Source: Promicromonospora soli (GTDB taxonomy: Bacteria > Actinomycetota > Actinomycetes > Actinomycetales > Cellulomonadaceae). Taken from it: a DNA stretch of 64,000 bases. Location: assembly GCF_014653785.1 (NCBI RefSeq), contig NZ_BNAS01000008.1, positions 36,437 through 100,436 of the forward strand. The letters run 5' to 3'. A program made the translations under genes and the position numbers. This document shows positions 23,989-40,651 of this stretch, piece after piece (the stretch's first letter is position 1; each line of letters starts with the position of its first letter). The notes below the pieces were generated by a model. That model was not told where the DNA came from, did not search any database, and saw only the letters and a list, made by a program, of their open reading frames with translations.

Positions 23989-25356
23989 GTGACGACGACA
24001 TCGCAGACATCCGATCTTCCCGGCTCGGCCGACGCGTGGCGCCGATCGCTGCTCCCCGACAACATGCTCGACACGTGGTACGACCGTGCTCGCGCCGCGC
24101 TGCCCGGTTCCGACGTTCCGCGAGTGTTCCGCGCCTGCCTCGCTCGCACGATACATCGCAGCCTCATCCCCGACGGCGATGAGGTCGCCGTCATCACGGG
24201 AGACATCCCCGCGATGTGGCTGCGCGACTCCAGCACCCAGCTGTGGCCCTATCTCTCGATCGTCGCGGAGGATCCGCACGGTCGGCTGGCCGATGCGATC
24301 GGCGGCGTGCTGCGACGGCAGCTGCGGCTCATCGCGCGTGATCCGTACGCGAACGCGTTCAACGTCCGTCCAGACGGGCATGCGCATGACAGCGGGGACC
24401 GGTGGGGCGATCATCCCGCCGACCCGCACATCTGGGAGCGTAAGTACGAGGTCGACTCTCTCTGCTTCCCGGTCCAGCTGCTCGCGCGCTTCGTCGAGCT
24501 CACAGGCCGGCGTGAGCTGCTCGACGGCCTGTTCCTCGGCGCGGCCCGTTCGATCGTCGACACGCTGCGGCGCGAACGTCACCATGAGGAGCGCTCGCCG
24601 TACCGCTTCGAACGGCCGGGCGGAAACGTCCTGGACACCCTCGCGCGCGGGGGGCGGGGGAGCGAGACCGCCTTCACCGGGATGACCTGGTCCGGCTTCC
24701 GGCCGAGCGACGACGCCTGCGTGTTCGGGTACAACGTCCCTGCCAATCTTCACGCAGCGGCCGCCCTCGGCGACCTGGCGAGCCTCGTGGCGCCACGCGA
24801 CGCGGAGCTCGCCGCCGACGCCCGGCGGCTCGCCGAAGAGCTCCGAGTCGCGGTCGCGCGGCATGGTGTGGTCGAGCATCCCCGGTTCGGCGAGATCTGG
24901 GCCTACGAGGTCGACGGGCTCGGCGGACACCTTCTGATGGACGACGCGAACCTGCCGAGCCTCCTCTCCCTGCCGATCGTCGCCGGTATCGACAAGAGTG
25001 ATCCGCTCTACCGCCGGACGCGCGCGTTCGTTCTCTCGTCCGACAATCCGACGTTCACCCACGGATCCCGGCTGTCGGGAGTGGGGAGCCCGCACACCTG
25101 GCCGGGATGGGTGTGGCCACTTGCGCTCGCCGCGGAAGGGCTCACGGCGCCGAGCGCGGAGGATGCGGTGCGCCTGATGGAGACGATCGCTGCCACCACG
25201 GGGGCGACCGACCATATCCACGAGAGCGTGGACGCCGACGACGATGCACGCTTCACCCGCCCCTGGTTCTCGTGGGCCGACGCGACGTTCTGTCAGCTCG
25301 TGATCTCGGTCGTGGCGCCTGAGCGCCATGTTGCCCCCGGCGGCCCCTCGCGTTAA
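23989..25356 (+). CDS. GH125 exo-alpha-1,6-mannosidase
   Basis: 455 aa of the GH125 (former DUF1237) family, metal-independent exo-acting mannosidases that remove alpha-1,6-linked mannose from N-glycans or yeast mannan. Recognised by GDIPAMWLRDSSTQLWPY, YEVDSLCFPVQL, the DDACVFGYNVPAN region and HESVDADD, which should supply the catalytic acid and base. No signal peptide, hence cytoplasmic. Codon use shifts here toward more GAT than in preceding genes. It starts the N-glycan locus. A TAGCGT hexamer lies eight bases before the GTG. Confidence 0.92.
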   Translation: MTTTSQTSDLPGSADAWRRSLLPDNMLDTWYDRARAALPGSDVPRVFRACLARTIHRSLIPDGDEVAVITGDIPAMWLRDSSTQLWPYLSIVAEDPHGRLADAIGGVLRRQLRLIARDPYANAFNVRPDGHAHDSGDRWGDHPADPHIWERKYEVDSLCFPVQLLARFVELTGRRELLDGLFLGAARSIVDTLRRERHHEERSPYRFERPGGNVLDTLARGGRGSETAFTGMTWSGFRPSDDACVFGYNVPANLHAAAALGDLASLVAPRDAELAADARRLAEELRVAVARHGVVEHPRFGEIWAYEVDGLGGHLLMDDANLPSLLSLPIVAGIDKSDPLYRRTRAFVLSSDNPTFTHGSRLSGVGSPHTWPGWVWPLALAAEGLTAPSAEDAVRLMETIAATTGATDHIHESVDADDDARFTRPWFSWADATFCQLVISVVAPERHVAPGGPSR

Positions 25357-25406
25357 TGCCGCGTTAAAACATCGGACCTTTGTTAGCGAACCTCTGGTAG
25401 CCGGAC

Positions 25407-25435
25407 TAATTAACAGCTAGCGTGCCTGTTAATTA
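25407..25435. promoter_or_regulatory. Operator of the ROK regulator
   Basis: TAATTAACAG (25407-25416) and CTGTTAATTA (25426-25435) are perfect 10-base arms with a 9-base spacer, in an A/T-rich island 22 bases before the ROK start. The form fits ROK/NagC-type operators. I saw no second copy inside the locus. Confidence 0.7.
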
Positions 25436-25457
25436 ACCGGCGACAGGGATCGCGGAG

Positions 25458-26645
25458 GTGCACGGCATGGAACGCAGGGTGCTCTCCGCGAACGAACGCC
25501 TCGTCGTCGAGCTGCTTCTCGAGCACGGATCGCTGTCGCGCTCGGCACTGGCGAGATCTGCAGGGCTCTCCAAACCTGCCACGAACGACCTCGTGCAGCG
25601 ACTGGTCGATGCTGGATTCGTCGCCGCCGTGGGGGAGGTCTCGTCGGTGCGTCGCGGTCCCAACGCCGTCCATTTCCGGGCAGTCACCGACCTGGCACAT
25701 GTAGCGGGCGTGGAGATGCAGCCAGAGCACGTGCGCGTGGCCATCGCCGGTCTCGAAGGGCGCCCGCTCGTCGAGCTCGACCTGCCGCGGGACGATGCGA
25801 GCCCGGCGGCGCACGTCGCGGAGGCGGTGCGCAGGGCCGCGGCGAAGATCGGACTGGGGACCTCGGACCTGTGGAAGGTCGTCGTCGGCACGCCCGGTGT
25901 CGTGACTCCCGACGGCGATGTGGACTTCGTCTCCGGCCATCCCGACTGGCACACCGGTCAGCGTGATCGCCTGTCCCAGGCGCTCGGATGCCCGGTGCGC
26001 CTGGAGAACGACGTCAATCTCGCCGCGCTCGCAGAGTCAGAAGAAGGACGAGGTGCGGACGTCGACAGCTTCACGCTGCTGCGTCTCGACGAGGGCATCG
26101 GCGCGGCGACCGTGCTGGGAGGCGTCCTGTTGCGGGGGGCGCGCGGATACGCCGGTGAGATCGGTTTCGCGCCGGCCATGGCGTCGTCCGAGCGGATCGG
26201 TGACTTGGAGACCGGGTATCAGAGCTGGGTCGGGCGCGCGGCGATCGATGCGCTCGTGCGCGAGCAGGGCATGACCCACGTCTCCGCAGAGGAAGTGCTG
26301 ACCGCGCCGGATACGGAGACGGGCGCCGCACGAGTGCGGGCCGAGGTCGTCCGGCGGGTCGCGGCGCTGGTCGCCACCGTGTCGACGGTGATCGATCCGC
26401 AGCGAGTCGTACTTTCGGGCGCACTCGGCGAGGCGGGCGGTGAGCGACTCGCGACGCAGATCGAGGAGGCCATCTCCCGCGACTCCCCGCTCCGCGTACA
26501 GGTTGTCCCTGCCGCGCTCGGCAGCGGCTCCGTCGTCATCGGCGCGCTCGCCCTGGTCATCGACGACCTCCGCGATCACGTCTACGGAACGCCCACAGCG
26601 GCCGTCTCATCACGGGCCTGGCGGCAGAGGAGAGGAGATCCCTGA
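25458..26645 (+). CDS. ROK family transcriptional regulator
   Basis: 395 aa. An N-terminal winged HTH (RSALARSAGLSKPATNDLVQRL, ~residues 28-49) is followed by a ROK sugar-binding domain (VVVGTPGVVTPDG, LENDVNLAALAE, GYAGEIGF). The usual zinc-binding CxCGxxGC motif of ROK proteins is missing; YQSWVG stands where it would be expected. It probably senses an imported mannoside or other glycan fragment and represses the locus through the palindrome just upstream. GTG 25458 is preceded by GGGATCGCGGAGG; ATG 25467 is also possible. About 155 bases separate it from the binding-protein gene. Confidence 0.9.
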   Translation: MHGMERRVLSANERLVVELLLEHGSLSRSALARSAGLSKPATNDLVQRLVDAGFVAAVGEVSSVRRGPNAVHFRAVTDLAHVAGVEMQPEHVRVAIAGLEGRPLVELDLPRDDASPAAHVAEAVRRAAAKIGLGTSDLWKVVVGTPGVVTPDGDVDFVSGHPDWHTGQRDRLSQALGCPVRLENDVNLAALAESEEGRGADVDSFTLLRLDEGIGAATVLGGVLLRGARGYAGEIGFAPAMASSERIGDLETGYQSWVGRAAIDALVREQGMTHVSAEEVLTAPDTETGAARVRAEVVRRVAALVATVSTVIDPQRVVLSGALGEAGGERLATQIEEAISRDSPLRVQVVPAALGSGSVVIGALALVIDDLRDHVYGTPTAAVSSRAWRQRRGDP

Positions 26646-26800
26646 CCGGTTTCCTCGCGCAGGACGAACGCACGTGCGCTTCCTGACGCGTCCAGCTCCT
26701 CGCATCTCTTCCGCGCCCGTTCCCAGGCGCTCGCTTCATCGAACAACCCGGCGCCCCCATGATGCCGGTCGTCGTCATGCCCCCAGGAAGGAATCACACC

Positions 26801-28186
26801 GTGTCCGAATACGTTGCCAGACCCCTCCATCGCCGACTGCTGAGCTTAGTGGCAGGTCTTGCCGTCGTGCCAGCCGCCCTGACCGGGTGCGGCGTCGGCT
26901 CCGGCGCCGACACCGACGCCACCGCGATGGCAGGCTCCTGCGAGCTGTCAGAGGCCGTCACGAACGACGAGCCGATCACCGGGGAGCCCTCCGGTGAGAT
27001 CACGTTCCAGACCACGGCGCTCAAGCAGTCGTTCAGCCCCTACTTCGAGGACCTCATCGCCGCCTTCGAGGAGCAGTACCCCGAGGTGACCGTCACGTGG
27101 CAGGACGACCCTGGCGACGCGGAGTTCACGCAGCGGCTCGTCACGGACGCCCAGGGCTGCCAGCTGCCCGACGTCGTCAACCTGAACCAGACCACGGCCT
27201 ACGCGCTGTACCGGGAGAACTTCCTCCTGAACCTCTCGACCAAGGCCCCCGACGTCGGGGAGGAGTTCATCCCCTCGGTCTGGAACTCGCTCGTGTTCCC
27301 CGGATCCGACGAGCACTTCGTCATGCCCTGGTACTGGGGGCTCGGCGGGCTGCAGACCTACAACACCGAGCTGATGAAGCAGGTGGGGCTGGACCCGAGC
27401 GCGCCGCCGACCACGGTGATGGAGCAGTTCGACATGGCCGAGACCGTGGCGGAGAACAGCGACGGGCAGTTCTACGCGTTCACGGCCAGCCCCTCGCAGC
27501 GCGTGCCGAGCGACTGGCAGCTCATGGACGCGCAGATCATGAACGACGACGAGACCGAGTTCACCTTCGCCGACGACCCGAAGATCATCGAGTGGCTCCA
27601 GCGCTACGCGGAGCTCTACGAGGCCGGCGCGTTGCCGAGGGACACGCTCTCCACCGATGTCGACGTGACGCAGCTGTACTCAGCGGGCGATGTGGTCTGG
27701 GGATCGACCAACGCCTCCTTCATGCGCTATGTCCAGGAGACCAACCCGGACACGTACGAGATCACCGGCGTCTCCTCGCTGCTGGACGCTCGCGGTGACG
27801 CGTTCCAGGAAGGGCAGCTCATCGCGGTCCCGTCGACCTCCGACAACCCCGTCGCGGCACTCGCCTTCGCGGAGTTCCTGTTGAGCCCCGACTGGCAGAC
27901 GACATTCGTCTCGGACGAGCGCATCTCCAACTTCCCTTCGACGACGGAGTCACTCGACATCCCGAAGTTCACGGAGGTCTCGGACACCCCGCTGGGCGAG
28001 GCGAACAGGCTCTCGGTGGAGCTCGCCCCGGATGCCACGAACAGCTTCATCTACAACTGGTCGGACTCCGTGAACTCGGCGGTCCTCTCGGAGCTGCAGC
28101 TGGCGATCGCGGGATCCAAGGACCCCGAGCAGGCGCTCGCGGACGCGCAGGACGCGGCCAACGGCATCCTCGCCGAGCAGGGCTGA
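26801..28186 (+). CDS. Sugar ABC transporter binding lipoprotein
   Basis: 461 aa. The signal peptide ends in a lipobox (ALTGC), so it is anchored outside the cell membrane. The rest is a family 1 solute-binding protein (NLNQTTAYALY, VMPWYWGLGGLQTY). GTG 26801 has GGAAGGA nine bases upstream; the longer frame from 26759 would break the signal peptide. It delivers an oligosaccharide to the two permeases downstream; neighbouring mannosidases suggest an N-glycan-derived ligand. Its codons are GAC-rich, more like the genome core than its locus neighbours. Its last ~80 bases are part of a duplicated junction. Confidence 0.92.
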   Translation: MSEYVARPLHRRLLSLVAGLAVVPAALTGCGVGSGADTDATAMAGSCELSEAVTNDEPITGEPSGEITFQTTALKQSFSPYFEDLIAAFEEQYPEVTVTWQDDPGDAEFTQRLVTDAQGCQLPDVVNLNQTTAYALYRENFLLNLSTKAPDVGEEFIPSVWNSLVFPGSDEHFVMPWYWGLGGLQTYNTELMKQVGLDPSAPPTTVMEQFDMAETVAENSDGQFYAFTASPSQRVPSDWQLMDAQIMNDDETEFTFADDPKIIEWLQRYAELYEAGALPRDTLSTDVDVTQLYSAGDVVWGSTNASFMRYVQETNPDTYEITGVSSLLDARGDAFQEGQLIAVPSTSDNPVAALAFAEFLLSPDWQTTFVSDERISNFPSTTESLDIPKFTEVSDTPLGEANRLSVELAPDATNSFIYNWSDSVNSAVLSELQLAIAGSKDPEQALADAQDAANGILAEQG

Positions 28187-28321
28187 TCGGAGCATTCGAG
28201 ATGACCACTCCGATCAGCCCTGATCGCCGGATCCAAGAACCCGGCGCAGGCGCTCGCGCGGGACGCGCAGGGCGGCATCCTCGCCGATCAGGGCTGATCG
28301 GAGCACTCGAGATGACCACTC
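28105..28321 (+). repeat. Tandem duplication of the binding protein/permease junction
   Basis: Copy A (28105-28210) spans the 3' end of the binding-protein gene and an ATGACCACT start. Copy B (28222-28321) repeats it with scattered changes and small deletions. Both carry CTGATCGGAGCA(T/C)TCGAG before ATGACCACTC. The two ATGs (28201 and 28312) are 111 bases apart and in the same frame, so two start sites exist for the permease. Confidence 0.85.
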
Positions 28322-29289
28322 GGATCACGTCACGGCGTGCCGCGGTGCGTGCAGCGTCACCGCCGGCACGACGCCGCTCGCGCGGCGGGGCGACCTCGGG
28401 GGCCGCCCTGTACCGGCAATGGTGGACGCCCCTGCTGTGGACGGCACCGGCGATCGCGGTCATCGTCGGGTTCGGGATCTTCCCGTTCGTGAACACCGTC
28501 GTGCTCTCGTTCACCGATGCGAGGCCGCTCGGCGGAGGCGGATCGTGGGTGGGGTGGGAGAACTACGCCCGCCTGCTCACCGACAGCGCCTTCTGGCTGG
28601 CGACCCGCAACTCGATCTTCTACGCCGTGGTGGCCGTGCCTCTGCTCGTGGTGCTGCCGCTCGTCCTCGCGCAGCTCGTGGTCACCCGGATCCCCGGGAT
28701 CGGCTTCTTCCGGACCGGGTTCTACGCTCCCGTGGTTGCCTCGATGGTCGCCGTCGCGCTGGTGTGGCAGAGCCTCCTCAGCGAGCGCGGCCCCGTCAAC
28801 AGCGCGTTGCAGCAGTTCGGTCTGATCTCGTCTCCGATCCCGTTCTTGTCGGATACGACCCTCTTGCTGCTGTCGGCGATCGCGCTGACCGTGTGGAAGG
28901 GCCTCGGGTGGTACATGATCTTCTACCTGGCCGCCCTCGCCAACGTGCCGAAAGAGCTGTACGAGGCGGCCGAGCTCGACGGCGCGGGCCCGGTGCGCCA
29001 GTTCCTCCACATCACGGTGCCCGGCGTGCGGCTCACGATGCTGCTGATCGCGATCATGTCGGGCATCGGCTCGCTGCGCGTGTTCACCGAGATCTACGTG
29101 CTCGGCGGGGCCACGGGCGGACTCGGCGGGCAGGCGCGGACGCTGCCGTTCTACATCCGCGACACGGCCCTTGACCCGATCGCCGGCAACGCCGGATACG
29201 GAGCGGCGGTCTCCGTGGCGCTGTTCCTGCTCACAGTCGGGCTCGCCGTCCTCTCGCACCGTCTCGGATCGGAGAAGGAGGAGCCATGA
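28312..29289 (+). CDS. Sugar ABC transporter permease 1
   Basis: 325 aa from ATG 28312. Six membrane helices and the MalF-type EAA loop (ELYEAAELDGAGPVRQFLHI) mark a carbohydrate permease of the MalF/UgpA group. An in-frame ATG at 28201 with the same ribosome site would add 37 residues, but those are translated from a decayed copy of the binding-protein tail and look like junk (Arg/Gly/Ala-rich). I prefer 28312. The stop overlaps the next permease by ATGA. Confidence 0.9.
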   Translation: MTTRITSRRAAVRAASPPARRRSRGGATSGAALYRQWWTPLLWTAPAIAVIVGFGIFPFVNTVVLSFTDARPLGGGGSWVGWENYARLLTDSAFWLATRNSIFYAVVAVPLLVVLPLVLAQLVVTRIPGIGFFRTGFYAPVVASMVAVALVWQSLLSERGPVNSALQQFGLISSPIPFLSDTTLLLLSAIALTVWKGLGWYMIFYLAALANVPKELYEAAELDGAGPVRQFLHITVPGVRLTMLLIAIMSGIGSLRVFTEIYVLGGATGGLGGQARTLPFYIRDTALDPIAGNAGYGAAVSVALFLLTVGLAVLSHRLGSEKEEP

Positions 29290-30155
29290 GCATCGTCGAA
29301 CGCTCGCCGCGCAGGACCGTCGGACGCTCTCCGCGCCGGACGCGGGCGCTGATCGTGCGCTACGCGATCCTGACCGGCATCCTGGCGATCTCGATCGGGC
29401 CGCTGCTGTGGCAGCTCAGCTCGTCGCTGAAGGGTCAGGGGGAGGCGCTCTTCGGCACGGAGGCGACGTTTCTCCCGCAGGACCCCTCGTTCGCCGCGTA
29501 CGCGACGGTGTTCGAGCAGGTCCCGATGGCGCTGTACATCCGCAACAGCCTCATCATGTGCCTGCTGACGGTGGCGAGCCAGGTGGTCTTCCCCACGCTC
29601 GCCGGATACATGCTCTCCCGCCGGCAGTGGCGAGGGCGAACGGTGTTCTACTGGCTGCTCATCGTATCGATGATGTTCCCCTTCGAGTCGATCATGGTGT
29701 CGCTGTACATGCAGATCCGCGACCTGGGACTCGTCAACTCGTTCGTCGGGGTGTGGCTGCCCGGCGCGATCGCGGCGGTGAACGTGCTCATCATGCGGGC
29801 CACCTTCGCGGCCGTCCCCGACGAGGTGGAGGAAGCCGCCATGCTCGACGGCGCCGGCGAGTGGCGCCGCTTCGTGCGCATCTATCTGCCCGCCGCCCGA
29901 GGATCGCTCGTGGTGGTCGTCATCAACTCGTTCATCGCAGCCTGGGACGACTTCTTGTGGCCCTTCATCGTGCTCCGCTCGGAGGAGCTGTACACGCTCT
30001 CGCTCGGGCTGGCGCGTCTGTCCGCATCGTCGTTGTCGTTCGATCCCCGCGTGCTGATGGCGGGGTCGGTCATCGCGATCGTGCCGATCATGGTGCTGTT
30101 CATCGCGTTGCAGAAGCATTTCTTCAAGGGCGTCGAATCGGGAGCCATCAAATGA
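29286..30155 (+). CDS. Sugar ABC transporter permease 2
   Basis: 289 aa, MalG-type. Six membrane helices, with the EAA loop EVEEAAMLDGAGEWRRFVRI. ATGA overlaps at both ends link it to permease 1 and the fucosidase. No ATPase is encoded in the locus, so the importer probably uses a shared MsiK-like ATPase from elsewhere, as is common for actinobacterial sugar importers. Confidence 0.93.
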   Translation: MSIVERSPRRTVGRSPRRTRALIVRYAILTGILAISIGPLLWQLSSSLKGQGEALFGTEATFLPQDPSFAAYATVFEQVPMALYIRNSLIMCLLTVASQVVFPTLAGYMLSRRQWRGRTVFYWLLIVSMMFPFESIMVSLYMQIRDLGLVNSFVGVWLPGAIAAVNVLIMRATFAAVPDEVEEAAMLDGAGEWRRFVRIYLPAARGSLVVVVINSFIAAWDDFLWPFIVLRSEELYTLSLGLARLSASSLSFDPRVLMAGSVIAIVPIMVLFIALQKHFFKGVESGAIK

Positions 30156-31432
30156 CGATCCCGCACCATCCGGCACACCTCGTCCCGACGCCCGAGCAGC
30201 TGACGTGGCAGCGCCTCGAGCTCGGGATGTTCTTCCACTTCGGCCTGAACACCTTCCACGGGAAGGAATGGAGCGACGGCACGTTGCCGGCCTCGTCGTT
30301 CGATCCGTCCGAGCTCGACGCTGACGAGTGGGTGCAGCTCGCCGTCGAGGCAGGCGCCCGCTACGTGGTGCTCACGGCGAAGCACCACGACGGCTTCTGC
30401 CTGTGGCCCACGGCGACGACCGACTACTCGGTCGCGTCATCTCCCTGGCGAGAGGGACGGGGCGACGTCGTGGCCGAGGTGGCGCGCGCGTGCCGTGACG
30501 CGGGCATCGGCCTGGGGCTCTATCTGTCCCCCTGGGACCGTAACCACCCGGCGTACGCCGCCTCCGACGCCTACGCCGAGGTGTACGCCGAGCAGCTGAC
30601 CGAGCTGTGCACGCGGTACGGCCCGCTCGTCGAGCTGTGGTTCGACGGGGCGGGTTCCGAGGGATATGTGTACGACTGGGAACGCACCATGGCGATCGTC
30701 CACGAGCATCAGCCGCAGGCGATGGTGTTCAACATGGGCGCCCCCACGATTCGGTGGATCGGCAACGAGGACGGGTTCGCGCCCGATCCGGTCGAGTACA
30801 CGGTGAGTCATACCCAGATGAGCAACTACACGATCGTGACGACTCAGTTCGCCGATGCGCTCTATCTGCCTCCCGAGTGCGATGTCTCCGTCAGGCGGGG
30901 CTGGTTCTGGCACCCCGATGACGAGCCCAAGTCGCTCGAGCACCTGTTGGCCATCTATTACCGTTCCGTGGGCATGGGTGCGAACCTCCTCCTCAACGTC
31001 CCGCCCGATACGCGAGGACGCATCGACCCTGCCGACGCCGAGGTGATCCGTGCTCTCGGTGGGGAGGTCCGTCGGCGCTTCGGCGCCCCGATCCCTGCTG
31101 CGCTCGAGCGGGCCGGCGATGGCCGCTGGCGCGCTGTGCTCGGCGACGAGGCGGTGACCTTCGACCACGTGCTCGTACGGGAGGAGCTCTCTCGTGGTCA
31201 GCGCGTACGAGCCCACCGCCTGCGGGTCGACGGGGACGACGTCGGTTCCGGTCTCACGATCGGTGCGAACCGACTTCACGTCACGGGGACGCGGACGGCG
31301 CGCGTGGTCGAGCTGGAGGTCGATGGCGACGATCCGGTGATCGACGAGGTGCTCGTCTACCGCACGGGGGAACCAGTTGCGCCGACGGCCCCGGAGGGCT
31401 ACGTCGCGCCCACCGCGTACCCCGAGGACTGA
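30152..31432 (+). CDS. GH29 alpha-L-fucosidase
   Basis: 426 aa. Family hallmarks are LGMFFHFGLNTF, KHHDGFCLWPT, LVELWFDGAG (nucleophile D165) and GANLLLNVPPDTRGRI. The segment IRWIGNEDG resembles the GH29-B group, which prefers branched alpha-1,3/1,4-linked fucose; that fits removal of antenna or plant-core alpha-1,3-fucose, but it is inferred. No signal peptide. ATG 30152 overlaps the permease stop by ATGA, and the next gene starts one base after this stop. Confidence 0.92.
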   Translation: MTIPHHPAHLVPTPEQLTWQRLELGMFFHFGLNTFHGKEWSDGTLPASSFDPSELDADEWVQLAVEAGARYVVLTAKHHDGFCLWPTATTDYSVASSPWREGRGDVVAEVARACRDAGIGLGLYLSPWDRNHPAYAASDAYAEVYAEQLTELCTRYGPLVELWFDGAGSEGYVYDWERTMAIVHEHQPQAMVFNMGAPTIRWIGNEDGFAPDPVEYTVSHTQMSNYTIVTTQFADALYLPPECDVSVRRGWFWHPDDEPKSLEHLLAIYYRSVGMGANLLLNVPPDTRGRIDPADAEVIRALGGEVRRRFGAPIPAALERAGDGRWRAVLGDEAVTFDHVLVREELSRGQRVRAHRLRVDGDDVGSGLTIGANRLHVTGTRTARVVELEVDGDDPVIDEVLVYRTGEPVAPTAPEGYVAPTAYPED

Positions 31433-31433
31433 C

Positions 31434-33986
31434 GTGCGCGTGGACGGCGGAGAGGACCTGCTGCGGACGCTCGACCTCGCGGAGCTCGAGTGGACCGTGC
31501 GCCTGTCGAGCGCACCCGATGCGAGCGCACCCGATGCGTGCGGAGCCGGCGCGGCGCTGCCGGCCGATGAGCTCGCGTCCGTACGCGCGGGGATTCCGGC
31601 GCGGGTGCCCGGCAACGTGCACGACGATCTGCTGCGCGCGGGGATCATCCCCGATCCCTATCGGGACGACGCCGTGAACGGGCTGGCCTGGATCGGGGAG
31701 GGCGACTGGACGTACGAGGCGCCGCTCCCGGACGGGGCTGTGCGCGCCGGCGGTCGCGAGAGAGCCGAGCTGGTCTTCGAGGGCCTCCAGACCGTGGCCG
31801 TCGTCGAGATCGACGGCGTGCCGGTCGCGCACACGGAGAACATGCACCGACGGCACGGGACCGACGTGACCGGGCTGATCTCGCCGCACGGATCGCGGAT
31901 CAGCGTGGGATTCGCATCGGCGGCACGTGTCATGCGGGAGAGAGAGGCGGCAGATCCCGGAGGCCCGTTGCCCTACGACTGGGCCTACCCCTACAACAGG
32001 CTGCGCACGATGGCGTCCAGCGTCGGCTGGGACTGGGCGCCGCCGCTCGTCAGTGCCGGCATCTGGAGGCCGGCCAGGCTGGAGGTGTGGGAGGGCATCC
32101 GTCTCCGATCGCACGTGCGCACCTCGCTCGCGCCCGACCTGACCGACGGCGAGCTGATCGTCGATGTGGAGCTCGCCGCAGCCGGGGACGCCGTCGCTCG
32201 CGGCAAGGTCGACATCCGTCTCGGGGACCGGACATGGACGATCCCGGTCGACGGCGCGACCTCGGTCCGCCTGCCCGTCGCCGCGCCCGAGCTCTGGCAT
32301 CCGCGCGGTCACGGTGACCCCGTCCTGCACGAGGTCGTGATCGGGGTCGTGGGCACGGGAACGTGCGAGCGGCATCGTGTCGCCTTCCGCCATGTCGCTC
32401 TCGACACGGCGGTCGACGAGTGGGGCAGGAGGTTCGGCCTCGTCGTCAACGGGATCGCCGTACAGGCCCGGGGCGCGAACTGGATCCCCCAGGACCTGTT
32501 GATGTCGCGCGTGGGCGAACAGCGCTGCATCGGGCTCGTGGGTGAGGCCGTCGCCGCGAACATGACGATGCTGCGCGTCTGGGGTGGCGGCGTCTACGAA
32601 CAGGACGCGTTCTACCGCGCCTGCGACGAGGCGGGACTCCTCGTCTGGCAGGACTTCGCCTTCGCCTGCGCGGCCTATCCCGAAGAGGAGCCGCTGCGGG
32701 CGGAGGTGGAGGCCGAGGCACGTGAGCAGGTGCGGCGCCTCGCCGCTCACCCGAGCGTCGTCCTCTGGAACGGCTCCAACGAGTGCTTGCAGGGATGGGA
32801 CGACTGGGGGTGGCGCGAGAGGGTCGGCACACGCACATGGGGCGAGTCGTACTACCGGCGACTGCTTCCGGAGATCGTCGCGGAAGAGGGATGCGGAACG
32901 CCCTACGTCCCTTCGAGCCCTTTCTCGTCGTCTCCCGGCGTAGCCCCCAACGCGGATGGCGAGGGGACGGTGCACCTCTGGGACCAGTGGAACCTGCTGG
33001 ACCATACGACCTATCGCGATCATGTCCCGCGCTTCGTCGCCGAGCTCGGTCACCAGGCGCCGCCGGCATGGGCCACGCTCAGGGCGGCGCTCACCCGGAT
33101 GCCTGGCCGAGGCGACGACGCGCAGCTCGACCACCGGCAGCGGCAGATCGGTGGGATGAGACACCTCGTCCGCCGGCTCGACGGACACGTCCCGGAGCCC
33201 GATGCGCTCCTCGACGACCTGGACGACTGGCTGTGGGCGACGCAGCTCCAGCAGGCGGAGGCCCTGCGCGTCGCGGCGGAGCATCTGCGCGGCAGGTGGC
33301 CCCGGACGACCGGCCTGCTGGTCTGGCAGATGGGCGACGCCTGGCCGGGCATCTCCTGGTCGATCGTCGACCACGCCGGACGTCGCAAGCCCTCCTGGTA
33401 CGCCCTGCGCCGCGCCTTCGCGCCGCGCGCGGTCTCTCTCCAGCCGATCGACGGAACCCCGTACGTCGTCCTCGTCAACGACACGGGCGAGCCGTGGCAG
33501 GCGCACGTCGCTCTGCGCCGCGTGCACGTGGTCGACGGCGAGCTCGCGGCAGAGCTGCTCGAGGTGACGGTGCCGCCGCGGGACACCGCCCGCCGACGCC
33601 TCGGAGCGGAGGTGGTGCTTCCGCACCGGAGGCGGGAAGAGGTGCTCGTCGCCGATGTCGGCGAGCTGCGCGCGACGATGATGCTGTGCCGTCCTGACGG
33701 CGTGCGGTGGGCGGCGCCTCGCCCCGCCGTCAACATCGTGCGTGACGCCGACGGCTGGGACGTGACCGTCGAAGCAGACGTGCTGCTCGCCGACGTGTCC
33801 ATCATGGCCGACCGCCTCGCGCCCGCGGCGAGTGCGGACGACCAGCTGCGCACGCTTCTTCCCGGCGAGAGCACGACCTTCCGCATCCTCGCCGGCGGCT
33901 CGTTGTCCGGCGCCGATCACACCGATCCGTCCGCCTGGTCGGCACGCCCCCTGCTCCGAACGAGAAACGACCTGTGGCACCGATGA
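31434..33986 (+). CDS. GH2 beta-mannosidase
   Basis: 850 aa. A jelly-roll and Ig-like domains are followed by the barrel. Diagnostic motifs: LRVWGGGVYEQDAFYRACDE, LLVWQDFAFACAAYP, NGSNECL (acid/base E450) and FVAELGHQ (nucleophile E537). These are typical of beta-mannosidases that remove the single beta-1,4-mannose of the N-glycan core or cleave manno-oligosaccharides. Start GTG 31434 is one base after the fucosidase stop; GTG 31440 is also in frame. Residues 20-33 hold a short duplicated DASAPDA stretch. Cytoplasmic. Confidence 0.92.
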   Translation: MRVDGGEDLLRTLDLAELEWTVRLSSAPDASAPDACGAGAALPADELASVRAGIPARVPGNVHDDLLRAGIIPDPYRDDAVNGLAWIGEGDWTYEAPLPDGAVRAGGRERAELVFEGLQTVAVVEIDGVPVAHTENMHRRHGTDVTGLISPHGSRISVGFASAARVMREREAADPGGPLPYDWAYPYNRLRTMASSVGWDWAPPLVSAGIWRPARLEVWEGIRLRSHVRTSLAPDLTDGELIVDVELAAAGDAVARGKVDIRLGDRTWTIPVDGATSVRLPVAAPELWHPRGHGDPVLHEVVIGVVGTGTCERHRVAFRHVALDTAVDEWGRRFGLVVNGIAVQARGANWIPQDLLMSRVGEQRCIGLVGEAVAANMTMLRVWGGGVYEQDAFYRACDEAGLLVWQDFAFACAAYPEEEPLRAEVEAEAREQVRRLAAHPSVVLWNGSNECLQGWDDWGWRERVGTRTWGESYYRRLLPEIVAEEGCGTPYVPSSPFSSSPGVAPNADGEGTVHLWDQWNLLDHTTYRDHVPRFVAELGHQAPPAWATLRAALTRMPGRGDDAQLDHRQRQIGGMRHLVRRLDGHVPEPDALLDDLDDWLWATQLQQAEALRVAAEHLRGRWPRTTGLLVWQMGDAWPGISWSIVDHAGRRKPSWYALRRAFAPRAVSLQPIDGTPYVVLVNDTGEPWQAHVALRRVHVVDGELAAELLEVTVPPRDTARRRLGAEVVLPHRRREEVLVADVGELRATMMLCRPDGVRWAAPRPAVNIVRDADGWDVTVEADVLLADVSIMADRLAPAASADDQLRTLLPGESTTFRILAGGSLSGADHTDPSAWSARPLLRTRNDLWHR

Positions 33987-36226
33987 CGCCGTCGCACGCA
34001 AGAGGCCGCTCCGCGGTGGAGCCCGCAGCCGATGCGCGTGCCCTGACAGCCGGCATGACGCTGCGGGAGAAGGTCGGACAGCTCAATCAGCGGCTGCTCG
34101 GATGGCAGTGCGTCGAGCGGGTCGGCGGGCGCTGGAGGACGACGGCGACGTTGCACGAGGAGGTCGAGCGCTGGGGCGGACTCGGTGCGCTCTACGGGCT
34201 CTTCCGCGCGGATGCGTGGTCCGGACGCGACTGGGACAACGGCGTGCGGCCACAGGAGCGTGCCGAGGTCGCCGAGATGGTGGTGGCGGAGGTTCGCTCG
34301 GCATCCCGGCACGGTATCGGCCCCCTGCTCGTCGAGGAGGCCCCGCACGGGCATCAGGCACTGGGAGCGGCCCTGCTGCCCGTGAACCTCGCAGTGGGCG
34401 CGGCCTGGGACGAGGGGTTGTACGCGGAGGCGGCCGCGGCGGTGGCGTCCGACCTGCGCGCGGACGGCGTGCATCTTGCGCTCGTCTCGGCGCTCGACCT
34501 CCTGCGGGACCCGCGCTGGGGTCGTGCGGAGGAGTGCTATGGCGAGGTGCCCGCGCTCGCGGCGGCCATGACCTCCGCCGTCGTCACGGGAATGCAGGGC
34601 GGCGGACGATCCCGCCTCCTCGACGGGTCAGGCGTGGGCGTCGTGCTCAAGCACTTCGCCGCTCAGGGCGAGGGTGTCGGCGGACGCAACGGGCACTCCG
34701 CGCAGATCGGCATGCGAGATCTCCAGGAGCTGCATCTGCCGGCGGCTCTGGCGGGCGTGGGAGCGGGTGCAGTCGGGATCATGGCGGCCTACAACGACAT
34801 CGACGGCGTGCCCTGCGTCGCCAACGCGCCGTTGCTGACGGGGCTGCTGCGGGACAGCTGGGGCTTTGACGGGATCGTCATGGGCGACGGCCTTGCCGTC
34901 GATCGCATCGTGGAGCAGGTCGGCTCACCCCTGTCGGCGGCCGCCACGGCTCTCATGTCCGGCGTCGATCTCTCGCTGTGGGACACCTCTTTCGCACAGC
35001 TCGAGGAGGCGGTGGCTCTCCGACCCGACCTGGAGCGCGTCGTGGACCGCGCCTGCGAGCGGGTGCTCGCGGTGAAGGGTCAGCTCGGTCTGCTGCCGGG
35101 GACGCCGCGCCCGACGCCCGTGGCTGAGCGCGCGCGGGAGACCGCGGTGCTCTCGCACCGGATCGCCGCGCGCTCGGTCGTGATGCTCCCCGGCACCGGC
35201 GAGGACCGCGTCCGCGAGGTCCTGCCCGTGCGCGGTACCGGCGAGTGGGTCGTCACGGGACCGCGTGCACATGACGTCGAGGCCATGCTGGGCGACTACG
35301 TCCCGCCGCTCGCCGAGGAGGAGCGCGTGAGCATCGCCGGCGCCCTGGTGGCGGAGTCTCTCGAGTCGGAGGCATCGTTCGCCGCTGTCGACGCGGACGA
35401 CGTGTCCGCGTTCGCGGCCGCGTCGGGGGTGGTCGTCGTGCTCGGGGGGTCGAGCCACCGCCCCTACGGCAGTGTTTTCGCGGACAACGGGGCGAGCGCG
35501 GGGCAGACGGCGGCGGACTGCGGCGAGGGAGTCGACCTGTCCTCGCCCACACTGCCGGACGGGCAGGTGGAGGCGCTGTCCCGGGTGCGTCGGGCGGCCA
35601 GGGGGCCGGTCGTGGCCGTCGTCCTGGCGGGCCGTCCGTACGTCCTGAGCGACGTCGCGCGTCTGGCCGATGTGATCCTGCTGGCCTTCTACCCGGGGCC
35701 GCACGGCGGGCGGGCCATCGCCGACCTGGTCCTCGGACGCACCCAGCCGGTCGGCAGGCTTCCCGCCACGATGCCGTCGGCGCCGGGTGCGATCCCCGTG
35801 CGAGCGGACGAGCGCATGAGCGCCAGCGATGTCTATCACGATGTGGCGGAGCCGGTCCTGTGGCCCGTGGGCGCCGGTGGCGGATACGGCCAGGTCGACG
35901 GCGTCCAGGTGCGGGCGCTGCGGCGGGCGGAGGTCGTCGTAGTCGAGCTCGAGGGGCACGTGATCGAGGGCGAGTGGCCGGCCGAGGAACTGGCACAGGT
36001 GCGGGCCCTGCGGCGCGGTGGACACACCTGGCCGCGTGCCGAGCTCGTCGCGTGGCGGCGGATCAGAGCCCCTCAGGGCACGCGGTTTCGCGAGCACCTG
36101 GAGATCCCGCTTCGCGACGTCCTCCTGCCGCCCTCCGAACGTGCGCCCCTCGCTCGGGCGACGACCGACCTGGTGGTCTCCCTCGGCTCGTCGCGCGTGA
36201 CGCTCACCCTCGCCGATGACGCCTGA
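33983..36226 (+). CDS. GH3 beta-glycosidase
   Basis: 747 aa. An N-terminal GH3 barrel has KHFAAQGEGVGGRNGH and nucleophile D302 in GIVMGDG; an alpha/beta sandwich (VVVLGGSS, GPHGGRAIADLVLG) and a C-terminal fibronectin-like domain follow. It resembles BglX-type two-domain enzymes rather than NagZ hexosaminidases. The substrate could be beta-glucose, beta-xylose or another sugar. In an N-glycan locus, beta-1,2-xylose of plant glycans is attractive but unproven. It is coupled to the beta-mannosidase gene by ATGA. Confidence 0.88.
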   Translation: MTPSHARGRSAVEPAADARALTAGMTLREKVGQLNQRLLGWQCVERVGGRWRTTATLHEEVERWGGLGALYGLFRADAWSGRDWDNGVRPQERAEVAEMVVAEVRSASRHGIGPLLVEEAPHGHQALGAALLPVNLAVGAAWDEGLYAEAAAAVASDLRADGVHLALVSALDLLRDPRWGRAEECYGEVPALAAAMTSAVVTGMQGGGRSRLLDGSGVGVVLKHFAAQGEGVGGRNGHSAQIGMRDLQELHLPAALAGVGAGAVGIMAAYNDIDGVPCVANAPLLTGLLRDSWGFDGIVMGDGLAVDRIVEQVGSPLSAAATALMSGVDLSLWDTSFAQLEEAVALRPDLERVVDRACERVLAVKGQLGLLPGTPRPTPVAERARETAVLSHRIAARSVVMLPGTGEDRVREVLPVRGTGEWVVTGPRAHDVEAMLGDYVPPLAEEERVSIAGALVAESLESEASFAAVDADDVSAFAAASGVVVVLGGSSHRPYGSVFADNGASAGQTAADCGEGVDLSSPTLPDGQVEALSRVRRAARGPVVAVVLAGRPYVLSDVARLADVILLAFYPGPHGGRAIADLVLGRTQPVGRLPATMPSAPGAIPVRADERMSASDVYHDVAEPVLWPVGAGGGYGQVDGVQVRALRRAEVVVVELEGHVIEGEWPAEELAQVRALRRGGHTWPRAELVAWRRIRAPQGTRFREHLEIPLRDVLLPPSERAPLARATTDLVVSLGSSRVTLTLADDA

Positions 36227-36237
36227 AGGAGGCGCAG

Positions 36238-39200
36238 ATGGCCCTCGAACCAGATGACGTGACGCTCGGACGTCTGCGGCGATTTGTTGATGAACGTCTC
36301 ACGCCGGCGCTCGACACCGACCGGCTGCCGATGCGTGCGCTCGGCTGGTCGCGCCCCGGCGAGCCCCCCGCCGTCTCCGAGGCACTCGCACTGTCCGGGG
36401 ACGACCTCGTCGAAGTCGTCCTCGGACAGTCGTGGGGAGAGCCGTGGTCGACCACGTGGCTGAGCCTGAGCGCGGACATTCCTGTGGCGTGGGCGGGAGA
36501 GGAGGATCAGGTCGACGTAGTGGTCGATCTCGGATTCACCCGGGACACGCCCGGGTTCCAGGCGGAGGGTACGGCGCGCGACACTGCCGGTCGCGCGCTC
36601 AAGGGCATCTCGCCGCGCAACAGGCACGTTCCCCTGAGCCTCCTGCTCGAGCGCGATCCGGTCGCGGCTGGGCGATGGAGCGCGGGCGAGGCGCCGTTCC
36701 CCGTGCGGCTCTGGGTGGAGGCGGCGGCGAACCCCGTGCTGGATCCGGAGTTCGTGTTCGCGCCCACAGAGCTCGGGGATCCCGCGACTCTTCCGGCCCG
36801 GCACCAGTACCGGTGGGGGGAGTTCGTCGTGCGTCGGCGTCACCCTCAGGCATGGGCACTTCTGCGTGATCTCTCCGTGCTCAGCGAGCAGCGCGAGACG
36901 TTGCCGGCGTCGGACCTCCGGCGTGGGCGCATCCTGCGCGCCGTCGCTCGTGCGCTCGACCTCGTGCAGATCTCGTCGCCCGCCGCCGTGCGCTCGACGG
37001 CGCTGGAAGCGCGCGAGGCGCTCGCGCCTGTCCTGTCAGAGCCCGCTGCGCAGGCCGGGCATCACGTCGTGGCCGTCGGGCACGCGCACATCGATTCGGC
37101 GTGGTTGTGGCCGTTCCGCGAGACCCGCCGCAAGGTGGTGCGCACGTACGCGAACGCCCTGGCCCTGCTGCGGGAGTATCCCGAGACGACCTTCGCCACG
37201 TCGTCAGCGCAGCACCTGGCCTGGGTGAAGGAGGCGGAGCCCGAGCTGTTCGAGCGCATCGTGGCTGCCGCCCGCGAAGGGCGGTTCGTCCCGGTGGGCG
37301 GCATGTGGGTCGAGTCGGACACCATGCTCCCGGGCGGAGAGTCGATGGTGCGCCAGCTCGTCGAGGGCGTCTCCTGGATGGAAACGGAGCTGGGAGTGCG
37401 GTGCCGAGGCGTCTGGCTGCCGGACTCGTTCGGGTACTCCGCGGCCCTTCCTCAGATCGCGCGTGCGGCCGGCATGCGCTGGCTGCTCACTCAGAAGCTG
37501 TCCTGGAACGACACCAACCGCATGCCGCACCACACTTTCTGGTGGGAGGGCATCGACGGCTCGCAGGTGCTCACCCACTTCCCTCCGGTGGACAACTACA
37601 ACAGTGACCTCGCTCCGCGGCAGCTCGCGCACGCCGAGGCCAACGTCGCGGACTCCGACCCCGTGTCGGCGAGCGTCTCGCTCGCGCCGAGCGGGTGGGG
37701 GGACGGCGGGGGCGGTCCCACGCGCGAGCACGCGGAGAGCGCTCGCCGGCTGTCCGGCCTCGCGGGAACACCCGCCGTGTCCTGGGGCACACCCGAGGAC
37801 TTCTTCACAGACGTCGAGCGGCGCGCCGCGGAGACGAGCGAGGAGGGCGCACCCCTCGGCCGCTGGTCCGGGGAGATGCCCTTGGAGCTCCACCGGGGGA
37901 TCTTCACCTCACAGCACAGGACGAAGGAGGGCAACCGTCGATGCGAGTCACTGCTGCACGAGGCCGAGCTGTGGTCCGCCGTGGCGTCGCTGCGCTGCGG
38001 GGTCTCCTATCCGCGGGAGGAGCTCCGTGAGCTGTGGCGGGTGGTCCTGCTCCACCAGTTCCACGACGTGCTGCCGGGTACGTCGATCGCCTGGGTCTAT
38101 CACGAGGTCGAACGCGCGCACGCTCGGGTGATCGAACGGTGCGAGGAGCTCGTCTCACATGCCTTGCGGACGCTGGCCGGATCCTCGGACGGGCAGGGCA
38201 CAGACCTGCGGGTGAACTCCGGCCCCGTCGTGCTCAACGGCGTCGCCCCCTTCTCCGCGGGTGCTGTGCAGGAGGCTCGGCCCGCCCGTGCGGTCCGTTC
38301 CCGCGATCTCTGGGTCCTGGAGGACTCGTCCGTCCGTGTCGAGGTCGATGCCCGCGGACACGTGGTCGCCCTGGTCGATCGATCGAGCGGGCGCGACGCG
38401 ATCGGGCCGGCCGGCCCGGGAAACGTGGCCTCGCTTCACCGCGACCTCCCCAATCGCTGGGACGCGTGGGACATCGACGCGCATCACGATCGCGTCGTCA
38501 GGGATTTCCCGGAGGCGAGGGTGCGCGCACAGGATCACATGGTGATCATCGAGCGCGACCTGGCGCAGGCGCGTCTCGTGCAGCGCTTGGAGCTCGACCG
38601 CGGTGCGCTCCGGGTGACGACGGAGGTCGACTGGCATGCGCAGGAGGAGCTCCTGACGCTGTCGTGGCCGTGGGACCTGCGTGCCGACGACATCGCTGCC
38701 GAGACACAGTTCGGGCACGTGCGGCGGCCTATGCATCGCAACACCACGTGGCAGAGCGCACGGTTCGTGGACGCGGCGCATCGTTGGGTGCACGTGGGCG
38801 AGCCCGGCTTCGGTGTCGCCATCGCCAATCACGTCACGCACGGATACGACGCCGCGCGGACGACCCGTCCCGACGGCGGCACCACGACGCGCCTGCGGGT
38901 CCACCTTCTGCGCGGGCCACGGTATCCCGATCCGCGCGCTGACGAGGGCAGGCATGAGTTCGTCCATCTCCTGCGACCCGGTGCGACCGTCGCCGACGCG
39001 ATCGGCGACGGCCTGGCGCTCGCGCTGCCGTTGCGTGCCGTCTCCGGACCGGCGGACCCGGCATTGTTCGTTCCGCTCGTGAGGATCGAGGGTGAGGGGA
39101 TCGTCGTCGACACCGTCAAGCTGGCCGAAGACGGCAGTGGCGAGCTCGTCGTCCGGCTTCACGAGGCATGGGGAACCCGCGCGACCGGCAGGATCGAGGT

Positions 39201-39396
39201 CGACATCCCTGGGCTCACCCTGATGAGTACCGATCTGCACGAGCGCCCCCTCGCACCGGGCGACTCGGACGGCAGTCTCCACTTCCTCCCCGACGATGCG
39301 CCCGGAGCGGAGCGCAGCGGCGCGAACATGATGCTGCGTCCGTTCGGCATCCTCACCCTGAGGGCGTGCAAGTCGCGCGGTGAGGCAGTCCGGTAG
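36238..39396 (+). CDS. GH38 alpha-mannosidase
   Basis: 1052 aa, the full length of this family. An N-terminal domain (~270 residues) precedes the catalytic zinc site GHAHIDSAWLWPFRET (H282, H284 and D286 region). The nucleophile is D396 in WLPDSFGY. HQFHDVLPGTSIAWVY and beta-rich C-terminal domains complete it. It trims alpha-1,2/1,3/1,6-linked mannose; cytoplasmic here. GAAGGAGGC precedes the ATG, 11 bases after the GH3 stop. It is the last gene of the locus. A TTTAACC-centred small palindrome near 39420 follows. Confidence 0.94.
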   Translation: MALEPDDVTLGRLRRFVDERLTPALDTDRLPMRALGWSRPGEPPAVSEALALSGDDLVEVVLGQSWGEPWSTTWLSLSADIPVAWAGEEDQVDVVVDLGFTRDTPGFQAEGTARDTAGRALKGISPRNRHVPLSLLLERDPVAAGRWSAGEAPFPVRLWVEAAANPVLDPEFVFAPTELGDPATLPARHQYRWGEFVVRRRHPQAWALLRDLSVLSEQRETLPASDLRRGRILRAVARALDLVQISSPAAVRSTALEAREALAPVLSEPAAQAGHHVVAVGHAHIDSAWLWPFRETRRKVVRTYANALALLREYPETTFATSSAQHLAWVKEAEPELFERIVAAAREGRFVPVGGMWVESDTMLPGGESMVRQLVEGVSWMETELGVRCRGVWLPDSFGYSAALPQIARAAGMRWLLTQKLSWNDTNRMPHHTFWWEGIDGSQVLTHFPPVDNYNSDLAPRQLAHAEANVADSDPVSASVSLAPSGWGDGGGGPTREHAESARRLSGLAGTPAVSWGTPEDFFTDVERRAAETSEEGAPLGRWSGEMPLELHRGIFTSQHRTKEGNRRCESLLHEAELWSAVASLRCGVSYPREELRELWRVVLLHQFHDVLPGTSIAWVYHEVERAHARVIERCEELVSHALRTLAGSSDGQGTDLRVNSGPVVLNGVAPFSAGAVQEARPARAVRSRDLWVLEDSSVRVEVDARGHVVALVDRSSGRDAIGPAGPGNVASLHRDLPNRWDAWDIDAHHDRVVRDFPEARVRAQDHMVIIERDLAQARLVQRLELDRGALRVTTEVDWHAQEELLTLSWPWDLRADDIAAETQFGHVRRPMHRNTTWQSARFVDAAHRWVHVGEPGFGVAIANHVTHGYDAARTTRPDGGTTTRLRVHLLRGPRYPDPRADEGRHEFVHLLRPGATVADAIGDGLALALPLRAVSGPADPALFVPLVRIEGEGIVVDTVKLAEDGSGELVVRLHEAWGTRATGRIEVDIPGLTLMSTDLHERPLAPGDSDGSLHFLPDDAPGAERSGANMMLRPFGILTLRACKSRGEAVR

Positions 39397-39502
39397 CCCG
39401 CTACGCTTCTCGGACGGAACGGGTTTAACCGGCATAAATGCGACGGCAAGCCGAGGGCGCCGCAGCCCGTCTCCGGCCGGCGACAGCGACAGGAACGGGT
39501 GC

Positions 39503-40651
39503 ATGCAGCTACTACCACTCATCCAGCAGGCGCTGTCGGACGACGCCGGCCGGCTCCACCTGGCGACGGCGGCGGGACCGCCCGCACCGGGAGCTCTGAA
39601 CGGCCTCACGGTGCTGGTCGTCGGCTTCTGCTTCCTCGTGCCGATGGTCTGGATCTACGCGGTGCGCCAGAGGGGTTCCAGGGGGGCCCTTGCACGCCTG
39701 GCGACGGCGCTCGCGGTCCTCTCCCTGTGGTTTGTCGGCGCGAGCGCACTGGTCTACCCGGCGGGCGTCCTGACCTATCTCGGCACCGCCGAGCTCGAGA
39801 GCCACCCCGAAGCGTGGCAATGGACCGCCGTGTCGCCGCTGGTGGCACTCTTCTACGCCTGGTGGTTCGGGCGGGACTTCCCGCGCCCCCGCGTATCGAG
39901 TCTCCTCACACGGGCCGGGCTGCTGTACGGCGCGTGCCTGATAGCCGTGCTCTTGGCGGTGCACGCCGGCCTGCCGGTGTTCTCCATGGGGGGAGTCGGC
40001 AATCTCCTCGCCCTCACGGCAACGCTCGTATGCATCGTCACCTGGCAGCTCATCGATCGACTGCGGCCGGCGCAGCTGCTCGTCAGAGCGGGGTGGGTCC
40101 TCGCTGTGTGTGTTGCCGTCGTCTGGCTCGCCCTTGCCAACGACGTGCAGATCATGGCCGACCCTCGCACCGCTACTGGTGTCGGTCTGCTGGTTACCGT
40201 CGGACTGCTCGCCCTTTTGGCCCTCGCCGGTTCCGTGGCCTGTATCGGCGCATGGCGGCTCATCAACCGGCACGGGCGGCCGCTCCGCCGCGAGGCACTG
40301 CCAAGGCCCGGCGAGGTCTGGAACGCGGAGGTTCCTTTCGAGGACGACGGGAGCGAGTCGAAGGACCGGCCCGTCCTGGTGGTGCGCGTCTCCGGCGACC
40401 ACGCGGCCGTCATGAAGATCACGAGCCAGGACAAGTCCCGCTTCGACAGCTACCTCCACCTCCCGCACGCCCGCTGGCGGAAGGTACTGACGAAAGACAG
40501 CTGGCTGGATCTGGCGACCACGGACCTGCCGTTGCGGAACTTCCGCAGCCTGCGGGGCCGCTGCCGGCCCGACGTGTGGCGCGCCGTCACCAAGGGAGAC
40601 CTGCCCCGCCGCAAGCCGCGCGGTATCGCCGAGCCGGAGCTCCCGCACTGA
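39503..40651 (+). CDS. Seven-helix membrane protein fused to a PemK/MazF-like domain
   Basis: 382 aa. About seven membrane helices occupy residues ~30-255. The C-terminal ~115 residues (from LPRPGEVWNAEVPFEDD, through KDRPVLVV, MKITSQDKS, and SWLDL) match the PemK/MazF pattern seen in actinobacterial toxins (PG-E-W, K-x-RP-VLV, KITSQDKS). A membrane-anchored toxin-fold domain with no antitoxin gene beside it is unusual; it may be a regulated RNase, or a repurposed fold. ATG 39503 has CAGGAACGG upstream. It lies right after the sugar locus. Confidence 0.7.
   Translation: MQLLPLIQQALSDDAGRLHLATAAGPPAPGALNGLTVLVVGFCFLVPMVWIYAVRQRGSRGALARLATALAVLSLWFVGASALVYPAGVLTYLGTAELESHPEAWQWTAVSPLVALFYAWWFGRDFPRPRVSSLLTRAGLLYGACLIAVLLAVHAGLPVFSMGGVGNLLALTATLVCIVTWQLIDRLRPAQLLVRAGWVLAVCVAVVWLALANDVQIMADPRTATGVGLLVTVGLLALLALAGSVACIGAWRLINRHGRPLRREALPRPGEVWNAEVPFEDDGSESKDRPVLVVRVSGDHAAVMKITSQDKSRFDSYLHLPHARWRKVLTKDSWLDLATTDLPLRNFRSLRGRCRPDVWRAVTKGDLPRRKPRGIAEPELPH

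Follow-up and report, generated by a model that had tools for sequence, protein, structure and literature searches.

Which glycan is taken up and degraded by the products of nine adjacent genes in the actinobacterium Promicromonospora soli is the question raised by this locus. The genes occupy positions 23989-39396 of the window analysed here, a 64,000 nt stretch (G000:C8:36437-100436) of a 5.38 Mb genome in 20 contigs, and all are on the + strand. They encode, in order, a glycoside hydrolase (GH) of family GH125, a ROK-family regulator, the sugar-binding protein (SBP) and two permeases of an ATP-binding cassette (ABC) importer, and GH29, GH2, GH3 and GH38 enzymes, an inventory proposed in a first-pass annotation and confirmed here by Pfam, with all nine families above their cut-offs. 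We consider it likely that the locus is a ROK-controlled import-and-digest system for the core of plant-type N-glycans. Read directly from the DNA are the enzyme families, the importer, a conserved palindrome and the clade-wide association of the GH3 with mannosidases, and from these we infer the substrate.

Use of N-glycans, which the first-pass annotation had also suggested, is strongly supported by the genomic company of the GH3 gene. A scan of genome contigs with a GH3 alignment (A1) gave 489 confirmed stretches, of which the top-ranking 80 are the loci compared here; the controls are 20 hand-picked, lower-scoring GH3 matches, taken as 20 kb around distant GH3 genes in related genomes, two of which are paralogues in the P. 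soli genome itself. Within a radius of about 10 kb, or less where contigs are shorter, an N-glycan-core mannosidase (GH38, GH125, GH5_18 or GH2) is found near the GH3 gene in 63/80 loci and in 0/20 controls (Fisher 3e-11, a value that counts sequences and not events, the loci being interrelated). GH38 or GH125 is present in 61 of the 80 and a GH5_18 or GH2 beta-mannosidase in 51, and 17 have a GH85 or EndoS-type endoglycosidase nearby. Ten neighbouring proteins were picked by hand and nine are endoglycosidases by Pfam, seven GH85 and two EndoS-type, the tenth being a GH38. A GH3 tree of 79 of the loci, the window and 18 controls sets the clade apart from the controls with 98% support in the Shimodaira-Hasegawa-like approximate likelihood ratio test, and the mannosidase link is seen in three well-supported branches. 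Omitted from the tree are L079, in which the gene caller missed the GH3, and controls L133 and L136, in which no GH3 was called.

Three main arrangements are seen in these loci. Arrangement (i), GH125-ROK-SBP-PermA-PermB-GH29-GH2-GH3-GH38, is that of the window and occurs in Promicromonospora, Isoptericola, Krasilnikoviella, Antribacter, Jiangella and Lentzea, in some of which GH125 has moved, is absent or lies past the contig end. In Promicromonospora AC04 the GH125 upstream of the conserved palindrome is reduced to residues 4-41 and 431-455, joined (L047:1293-1480), and a separate GH125 adjoins another GH3 from the wider clade (L046). Arrangement (ii), GH38-SBP-Perm-Perm-GH5_18-GH3, is often beside a GH85 with a secreted-looking N-terminus and is present in Streptomyces, Nonomuraea, Cellulomonas, Microbacterium, Brachybacterium, Promicromonospora panici and Bifidobacterium. 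In arrangement (iii), found in Curtobacterium, Plantibacter and other Promicromonospora, GH5_18 and a LacI regulator diverge from SBP-Perm-Perm-GH3-GH125. Further versions with GH38 or GH125 are carried by Enterococcus, Globicatella, Lapidilactobacillus and Companilactobacillus. No locus has both GH2 (10 of 79 loci) and GH5_18 (40 of 79), as expected of alternatives. The GH5_18 assignment was confirmed with one representative, whose relatives in the PDB include BlGH5_18, BlMan5B, ScGH5_18 and 6gvb (a C. acnes exo-beta-1,4-mannosidase), its top match 9y4v being titled only glycosyl hydrolase. Streptomyces and Bifidobacterium GH5_18 loci were reportedly described by Higgins et al. in 2021. We also note a GH84-type hexosaminidase near the GH38-GH5_18-GH3 arrangement in three loci (L037:16610-18496, L057 and L058).

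The GH3 enzyme (33974-36226; Pfam 158 and 81 bits) is predicted from its sequence and neighbourhood to be a beta-xylosidase acting on the beta-1,2-xylose of N-glycans, an activity that the first-pass annotation had offered with a 'perhaps'. By sequence matches and NCBIfam models it is nearest to beta-xylosidases: its best solved relatives are 7zb3 and 8c7f (Thermotoga maritima beta-xylosidase), and its best NCBIfam model is a beta-xylosidase/alpha-L-arabinosidase, which scores 276 bits where the cut-off is 1050. The catalytic pair D305 and E518, located by alignment with 8c7f (whose title names mutants D281N and E517Q), is intact, and both residues are invariant in the 12-sequence alignment A1. 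Residue E122 is also Glu in 7zb3 and is Asp in 3u48 and 8va3. T. maritima beta-xylosidase tops the fold search made with a structure model of the GH3 (mean predicted local distance difference test score 72.6).

The GH29 fucosidase (30152-31432; 150 bits) is subfamily-B-like and predicted to cleave alpha-1,3(/4) linkages. Its best matches are 4zrx, 8ayr, SpGH29 and 3ues (1e-93 to 1e-73), and 6gn6, 2wvt and others follow at 1e-27 or weaker, more than 40 orders of magnitude behind. Of these best matches 3ues is named an alpha-1,3/4-fucosidase, and for most of the matched chains the subfamily label is our assumption. D165 and E206 are invariant in alignment A2 and align with the 3ues positions that we take to be the nucleophile and the acid/base. 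Its nearest characterised relatives by sequence matches are thus alpha-1,3/4-fucosidases. SpGH29 has been treated under subfamily B, which usually cuts alpha-1,3/4 linkages (PMC10154630).

The remaining three enzymes are mannosidases. GH2 (31434-33986; N-terminal domain 135 bits) is a predicted exo-beta-mannosidase and the candidate core beta-mannosidase of a locus that lacks GH5_18; its best matches, 5n6u (1.5e-109), 6bye (6.3e-101) and 2vjx (1.6e-86), are all named beta-mannosidase. GH38 (36238-39396; 295 and 117 bits) is an alpha-mannosidase whose best PDB matches are 7ufs, 7ufr, 7ufu and 7uft (E 1.5e-199 to 2e-181), and we take 7ufr to 7ufu to be B. longum enzymes. GH125 (23989-25356, start codon uncertain; PF06824, 442 bits) is a predicted exo-alpha-1,6-mannosidase. 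The five enzymes have no signal peptide as judged by eye, in agreement with the first-pass annotation. The same annotation described the gene order as mostly ATGA-coupled, and this holds for only two junctions, PermA/PermB (29286-29289) and PermB/GH29 (30152-30155). Junctions from GH29 through GH38 are tight (a 1-base gap, a 13-base overlap and an 11-base gap), and true gaps of 101 and 113 bases separate GH125 from ROK and ROK from SBP.

'Plant-type' here describes a structure and does not name a source. Beta-1,2-xylose also occurs in some invertebrates. Together with core alpha-1,3-fucose it marks the N-glycans of plants (PMC4154441), and invertebrates too carry core alpha-1,3-fucose; in humans the core fucose is alpha-1,6 (PMC10154630). 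Plant N-glycans are substrates of both a GH3 and a GH29 in B. massiliensis, each aided by prior removal of the alpha-1,3-mannose, and the GH29 there also clears Lewis X, which of the glycans assayed resembles the core most closely (PMC9522356). Plant-type decorations are our best reading of the P. soli locus because its GH3 is nearest to beta-xylosidases and its GH29 to alpha-1,3/4-fucosidases, and plant-type specificity would follow by inference.

An alternative is that the locus serves the N-glycan core in general, of high-mannose or animal glycans, with the GH3 trimming something else or being a passenger and the GH29 acting on Lewis antennae. The core families are indeed those of the Bifidobacterium, Cutibacterium and streptococcal pathways (PMC6160142, PMC10154615), and GH29 enzymes of subfamily B also take the alpha-1,3/4 linkages of Lewis antigens (PMC10154630). 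However, the GH3 is accompanied by mannosidases in three well-supported branches of its tree, the nearest solved relatives of the GH3 target beta-xylosides, the alpha-1,6-linked human core fucose is not the usual subfamily B target (PMC10154630), and no beta-galactosidase family is present among the locus genes for the processing of Lewis antennae. We regard this explanation as unlikely.

Xylomannans of the Cryptococcus or Tremella type are alpha-1,3-mannans with beta-1,2-xylose and sometimes fucose. GH38, GH3 and GH29 would fit the side chains of these polymers, but the GH2 and GH5_18 beta-mannosidases and the GH85 neighbours would have no evident role, and the nine locus genes include, by Pfam, no glucuronidase, GH76, GH92 or GH99; a fungal xylomannan is thus a very improbable substrate. 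Hardly credible is a locus for beta-mannan, yeast alpha-mannan or xylan. A GH2 beta-mannosidase and a xylosidase-type GH3 are common in such loci, but GH125 and GH38 are alpha-mannosidases, found in 0/20 control GH3 loci, and the nine genes include no endo-mannanase, endo-xylanase or GH76, and nothing of the yeast alpha-mannan signature GH76/GH99/GH92, a search confined to the locus.

Under the plant-type N-glycan reading the locus can be set against a defined molecule, Man3XylFucGlcNAc2 (GlcNAc, N-acetylglucosamine), and a matching family is encoded for five of its six linkages, the exception being GlcNAc-GlcNAc. Free Man3Fuc1Xyl1GlcNAc2 is contained in plant extracellular fluid (PMC12622904), and nearly all complex or truncated plant free N-glycans retain both GlcNAc residues because the plant endoglycosidase is inactive on the core-fucosylated unit (PMC4154441).

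Several observations tell against this reading. The truncated plant free N-glycans are mainly vacuolar, and culture broth contains longer ones bearing GlcNAc or Lewis a (PMC4154441), for whose antennae the locus has no families. Core alpha-1,3-fucose and Lewis-type alpha-1,3/4-fucose, the putative GH29 targets, are not separable here. For the GH3, Glu at the E122 position is also found in EmGH1, titled a beta-glucosidase, so that the mark is not exclusive; none of the curated NCBIfam equivalog cut-offs is passed; and the fold search does not separate xylosidases from glucosidases, leaving specificity undecided. Seventeen of the 80 loci, some on short contigs and six from Enterococcus, have no mannosidase nearby, and the GH3 clade is therefore not purely linked to N-glycans. 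The locus has no GH20, and the P. soli genome gives no match to GH85, PNGase A, the PNGase F C-domain, EndoS-type enzymes or PF16126, which we take to be GH163.

The PF16126 search covered 12 genomes, and those for the other four releasing families covered the genomes of 50 of the 80 loci (49 genomes) plus that of P. soli. The first-pass annotation noted no endoglycosidase or GH20 in the window, which is correct; the GH18 and GH20 genes, as well as an MsiK-like gene, are on contigs C4 and C5 and not on C8. Of the families that it proposed to look for elsewhere in the genome, GH20 is present in two copies, one on C4 and one on C5, but GH85 is absent and the sole GH18 is chitinase-like, nearest to chitinase B (1kfw). 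No GH39 was found in the genome, which is uninformative. Since no releasing enzyme of the searched families is encoded, release would fall to another organism, to the plant or to an enzyme of another family, and the locus would live on N-glycans that are already free or that others have set free.

Import would begin at the predicted lipoprotein SBP (26759-28186; SBP_bac_8/SBP_bac_1, 86 bits), which carries a lipobox-like ALTGC noted by eye. The two permeases are of UgpA/MalF type (28201-29289, start uncertain; 50 bits) and UgpE/MalG type (29286-30155; 65 bits), assigned by Pfam with NCBIfam matches below cut-off. The ATPase is not part of the locus, and a check for an MsiK-like protein found one UgpC/MsiK-type gene over the family cut-off in the genome (G000:C5:355291-356403), which would serve the importer; the gene is a common one, over cut-off in 8/14 control genomes, and so is not specific.

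The ROK protein (25458-26645; 108 bits) has a winged helix and a ROK domain, and the NCBIfam regulators NagC and Mlc match it far below their cut-offs. A perfect palindrome with 10-base arms and a 9-base spacer lies between the GH125 and ROK genes at 25407-25435, and is a probable ROK repressor site. In its looser form, TTAAC...GTTAA, the motif has one occurrence in the window, against a mean of 0.02 in 50 shuffles of the window. The palindrome is common to five genomes while its flanks vary, and in Jiangella it is sited before GH125. Nine genomes were searched and an exact site was found once each in P. soli and four others; the search pattern was built from these same sites, and only their uniqueness counts as a test. 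Allowing up to three mismatches adds no second site in P. soli and one, with three mismatches, in Antribacter, and the reversed control pattern gave a single match, in Lentzea. As judged by eye, the palindrome is at most degenerate in Isoptericola 4D.3, Isoptericola QY 916 and Krasilnikoviella, and Lentzea has a different one. The ROK protein may thus be a dedicated repressor with one operator. A scan for sigma-70 promoters and terminators performed no better than chance.

A plausible scenario is that a released glycan, for which the paucimannosidic Man3Xyl1Fuc1GlcNAc2 of plants is the best match, would be bound by the SBP and taken in through the two permeases with the shared MsiK-type ATPase. 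Digestion in the cytoplasm could then follow the order known from B. massiliensis, with alpha-1,3-mannose removed first by GH38, then beta-1,2-xylose by GH3 and core alpha-1,3-fucose by GH29, and thereafter alpha-1,6-mannose by GH125/GH38 and beta-1,4-mannose by GH2. The chitobiose left over would be handled by GH20 encoded elsewhere in the genome. ROK would repress the operon at the palindrome until a product sugar binds it.

Much of this is familiar from described systems, both Gram-positive N-glycan-core loci, such as the NGD loci of C. acnes (PMC6160142) and the GH38/GH125 operon of B. longum (PMC10154615), and plant N-glycan breakdown in Bacteroides and Xanthomonas. Shared with the Gram-positive loci are cytoplasmic GH38 and GH125 and, in the GH2, a candidate beta-mannosidase for Man-GlcNAc, and with C. 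acnes also sugar ABC transporter genes and a nearby regulator (PMC6160142). In contrast to them, the P. soli locus adds GH3 and a B-like GH29, has GH2 in place of GH5_18, and lacks GH20 and GH18/GH85. The B. massiliensis pathway likewise combines GH3 and GH29 with an alpha-1,3-mannosidase, activity on xylosylated and core-fucosylated glycans having been demonstrated there, but it uses a PNGase, GH92 and several loci, with GH3 and GH29 predicted to be periplasmic (PMC9522356), whereas here there is a single cytoplasmic locus with GH38/GH125 and no releasing enzyme. The first-pass comparison with the nix cluster of Xanthomonas holds in that a fucosidase and other exo-enzymes for plant N-glycans are clustered (PMC5700972, PMC10154630), but the resemblance does not go far: the GH29 NixE belongs to subfamily A and has a signal peptide (PMC10154630), unlike the B-like cytoplasmic enzyme, and the Gram-negative cluster also has NixF, which cuts between the two GlcNAc residues, and the beta-galactosidase NixL (PMC5700972, PMC10154630). 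What appears to be new is a GH3- and GH29-bearing cytoplasmic variant of the known N-glycan-core loci; no description of GH3-bearing Gram-positive N-glycan loci was found in the open-access literature, which was covered in part, and priority is not established. Demonstrations of plant N-glycan breakdown have so far come mainly from gut Bacteroides and a plant pathogen, and the locus, if correctly read, would represent a compact cytoplasmic route for plant N-glycan cores in Gram-positive bacteria. It also offers a defined enzyme set together with an importer and a one-site regulator, all open to tests with a single defined glycan.

GH29 (15 loci) and an endoglycosidase (17 loci) occur together in 0/80 loci (hypergeometric 0.018). 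Among the genomes searched, GH85 is present in 1/9 of arrangement (i), P. soli included, and in 17/23 of arrangement (ii); counting all 11 genomes with actinobacterial GH29-GH3 loci, again with P. soli, the contrast is 1/11 against 17/23 (Fisher 0.0006). The arrangement (i) exception is Lentzea, where GH85 and PNGase A are present and the PNGase F and EndoS-type matches, though weak, exceed their cut-offs, and the six arrangement (ii) genomes without GH85 are bifidobacteria or a Bifidobacteriaceae metagenome-assembled genome. PNGase A, found in 4/50 genomes, was considered as an explanation of the GH29-type loci and fails to separate the types (2/9 of arrangement (i) and 2/23 of arrangement (ii)). 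On the tree there are only four independent pairs (sign test p 1), so the exclusion is a pattern and not a demonstrated rule; it fits the chemistry of release. Tentatively, Gram-positive bacteria may have two complementary plant N-glycan systems built around one GH3 xylosidase clade and matched to the mode of release, a possibility about which we are more doubtful than confident and which the mainly vacuolar location of truncated free glycans (PMC4154441) makes less probable. The endoglycosidase loci (GH85/EndoS-type and GH5_18, without fucosidase) would take glycans with one GlcNAc, the core fucose remaining on the protein.

Among the relatives, in Bifidobacterium aerophilum the GH3 is directly followed by an EndoS-type protein and a large GH85 (L072:12451-18388); if it is a plant N-glycan locus, its presence in this genus would be worth attention. 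The six mannosidase-free Enterococcus loci are L110, L120, L121, L123, L125 and L126. In L110 and L121 the GH3 is preceded by a 443-residue protein resembling a phosphotransferase system permease, with a LacI-like regulator after it in L121; these neighbours point to another substrate for the Enterococcus members. If the reading is right, relatives of the GH3 in Bifidobacterium, Enterococcus and Companilactobacillus might widen plant N-glycan use beyond Bacteroides, in guts and fermented foods.

Within its own genus the locus is accessory, since the GH3 is found at >=92% in only 2/13 Promicromonospora genomes (G000 to G012), P. soli and AC04. An island origin judged by G+C content is not convincing, with the genes at 65-73% and the flanks at 71-73%. 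Directly downstream of GH38, the protein encoded at 39503-40651 has only a sub-threshold PemK/MazF match and is apparently outside the module because the AC04 match stops at 39401. Upstream, a GH10-family protein (12134-13408) and a GH5 with ricin-type lectin domains (19125-20639) stand alone. Further downstream, an IMS-family protein (51789-53474) is followed by a 1131-residue protein with, by appearance, a DnaE2-like start, and the region 50992-56862 is probably a mutagenic repair cassette.

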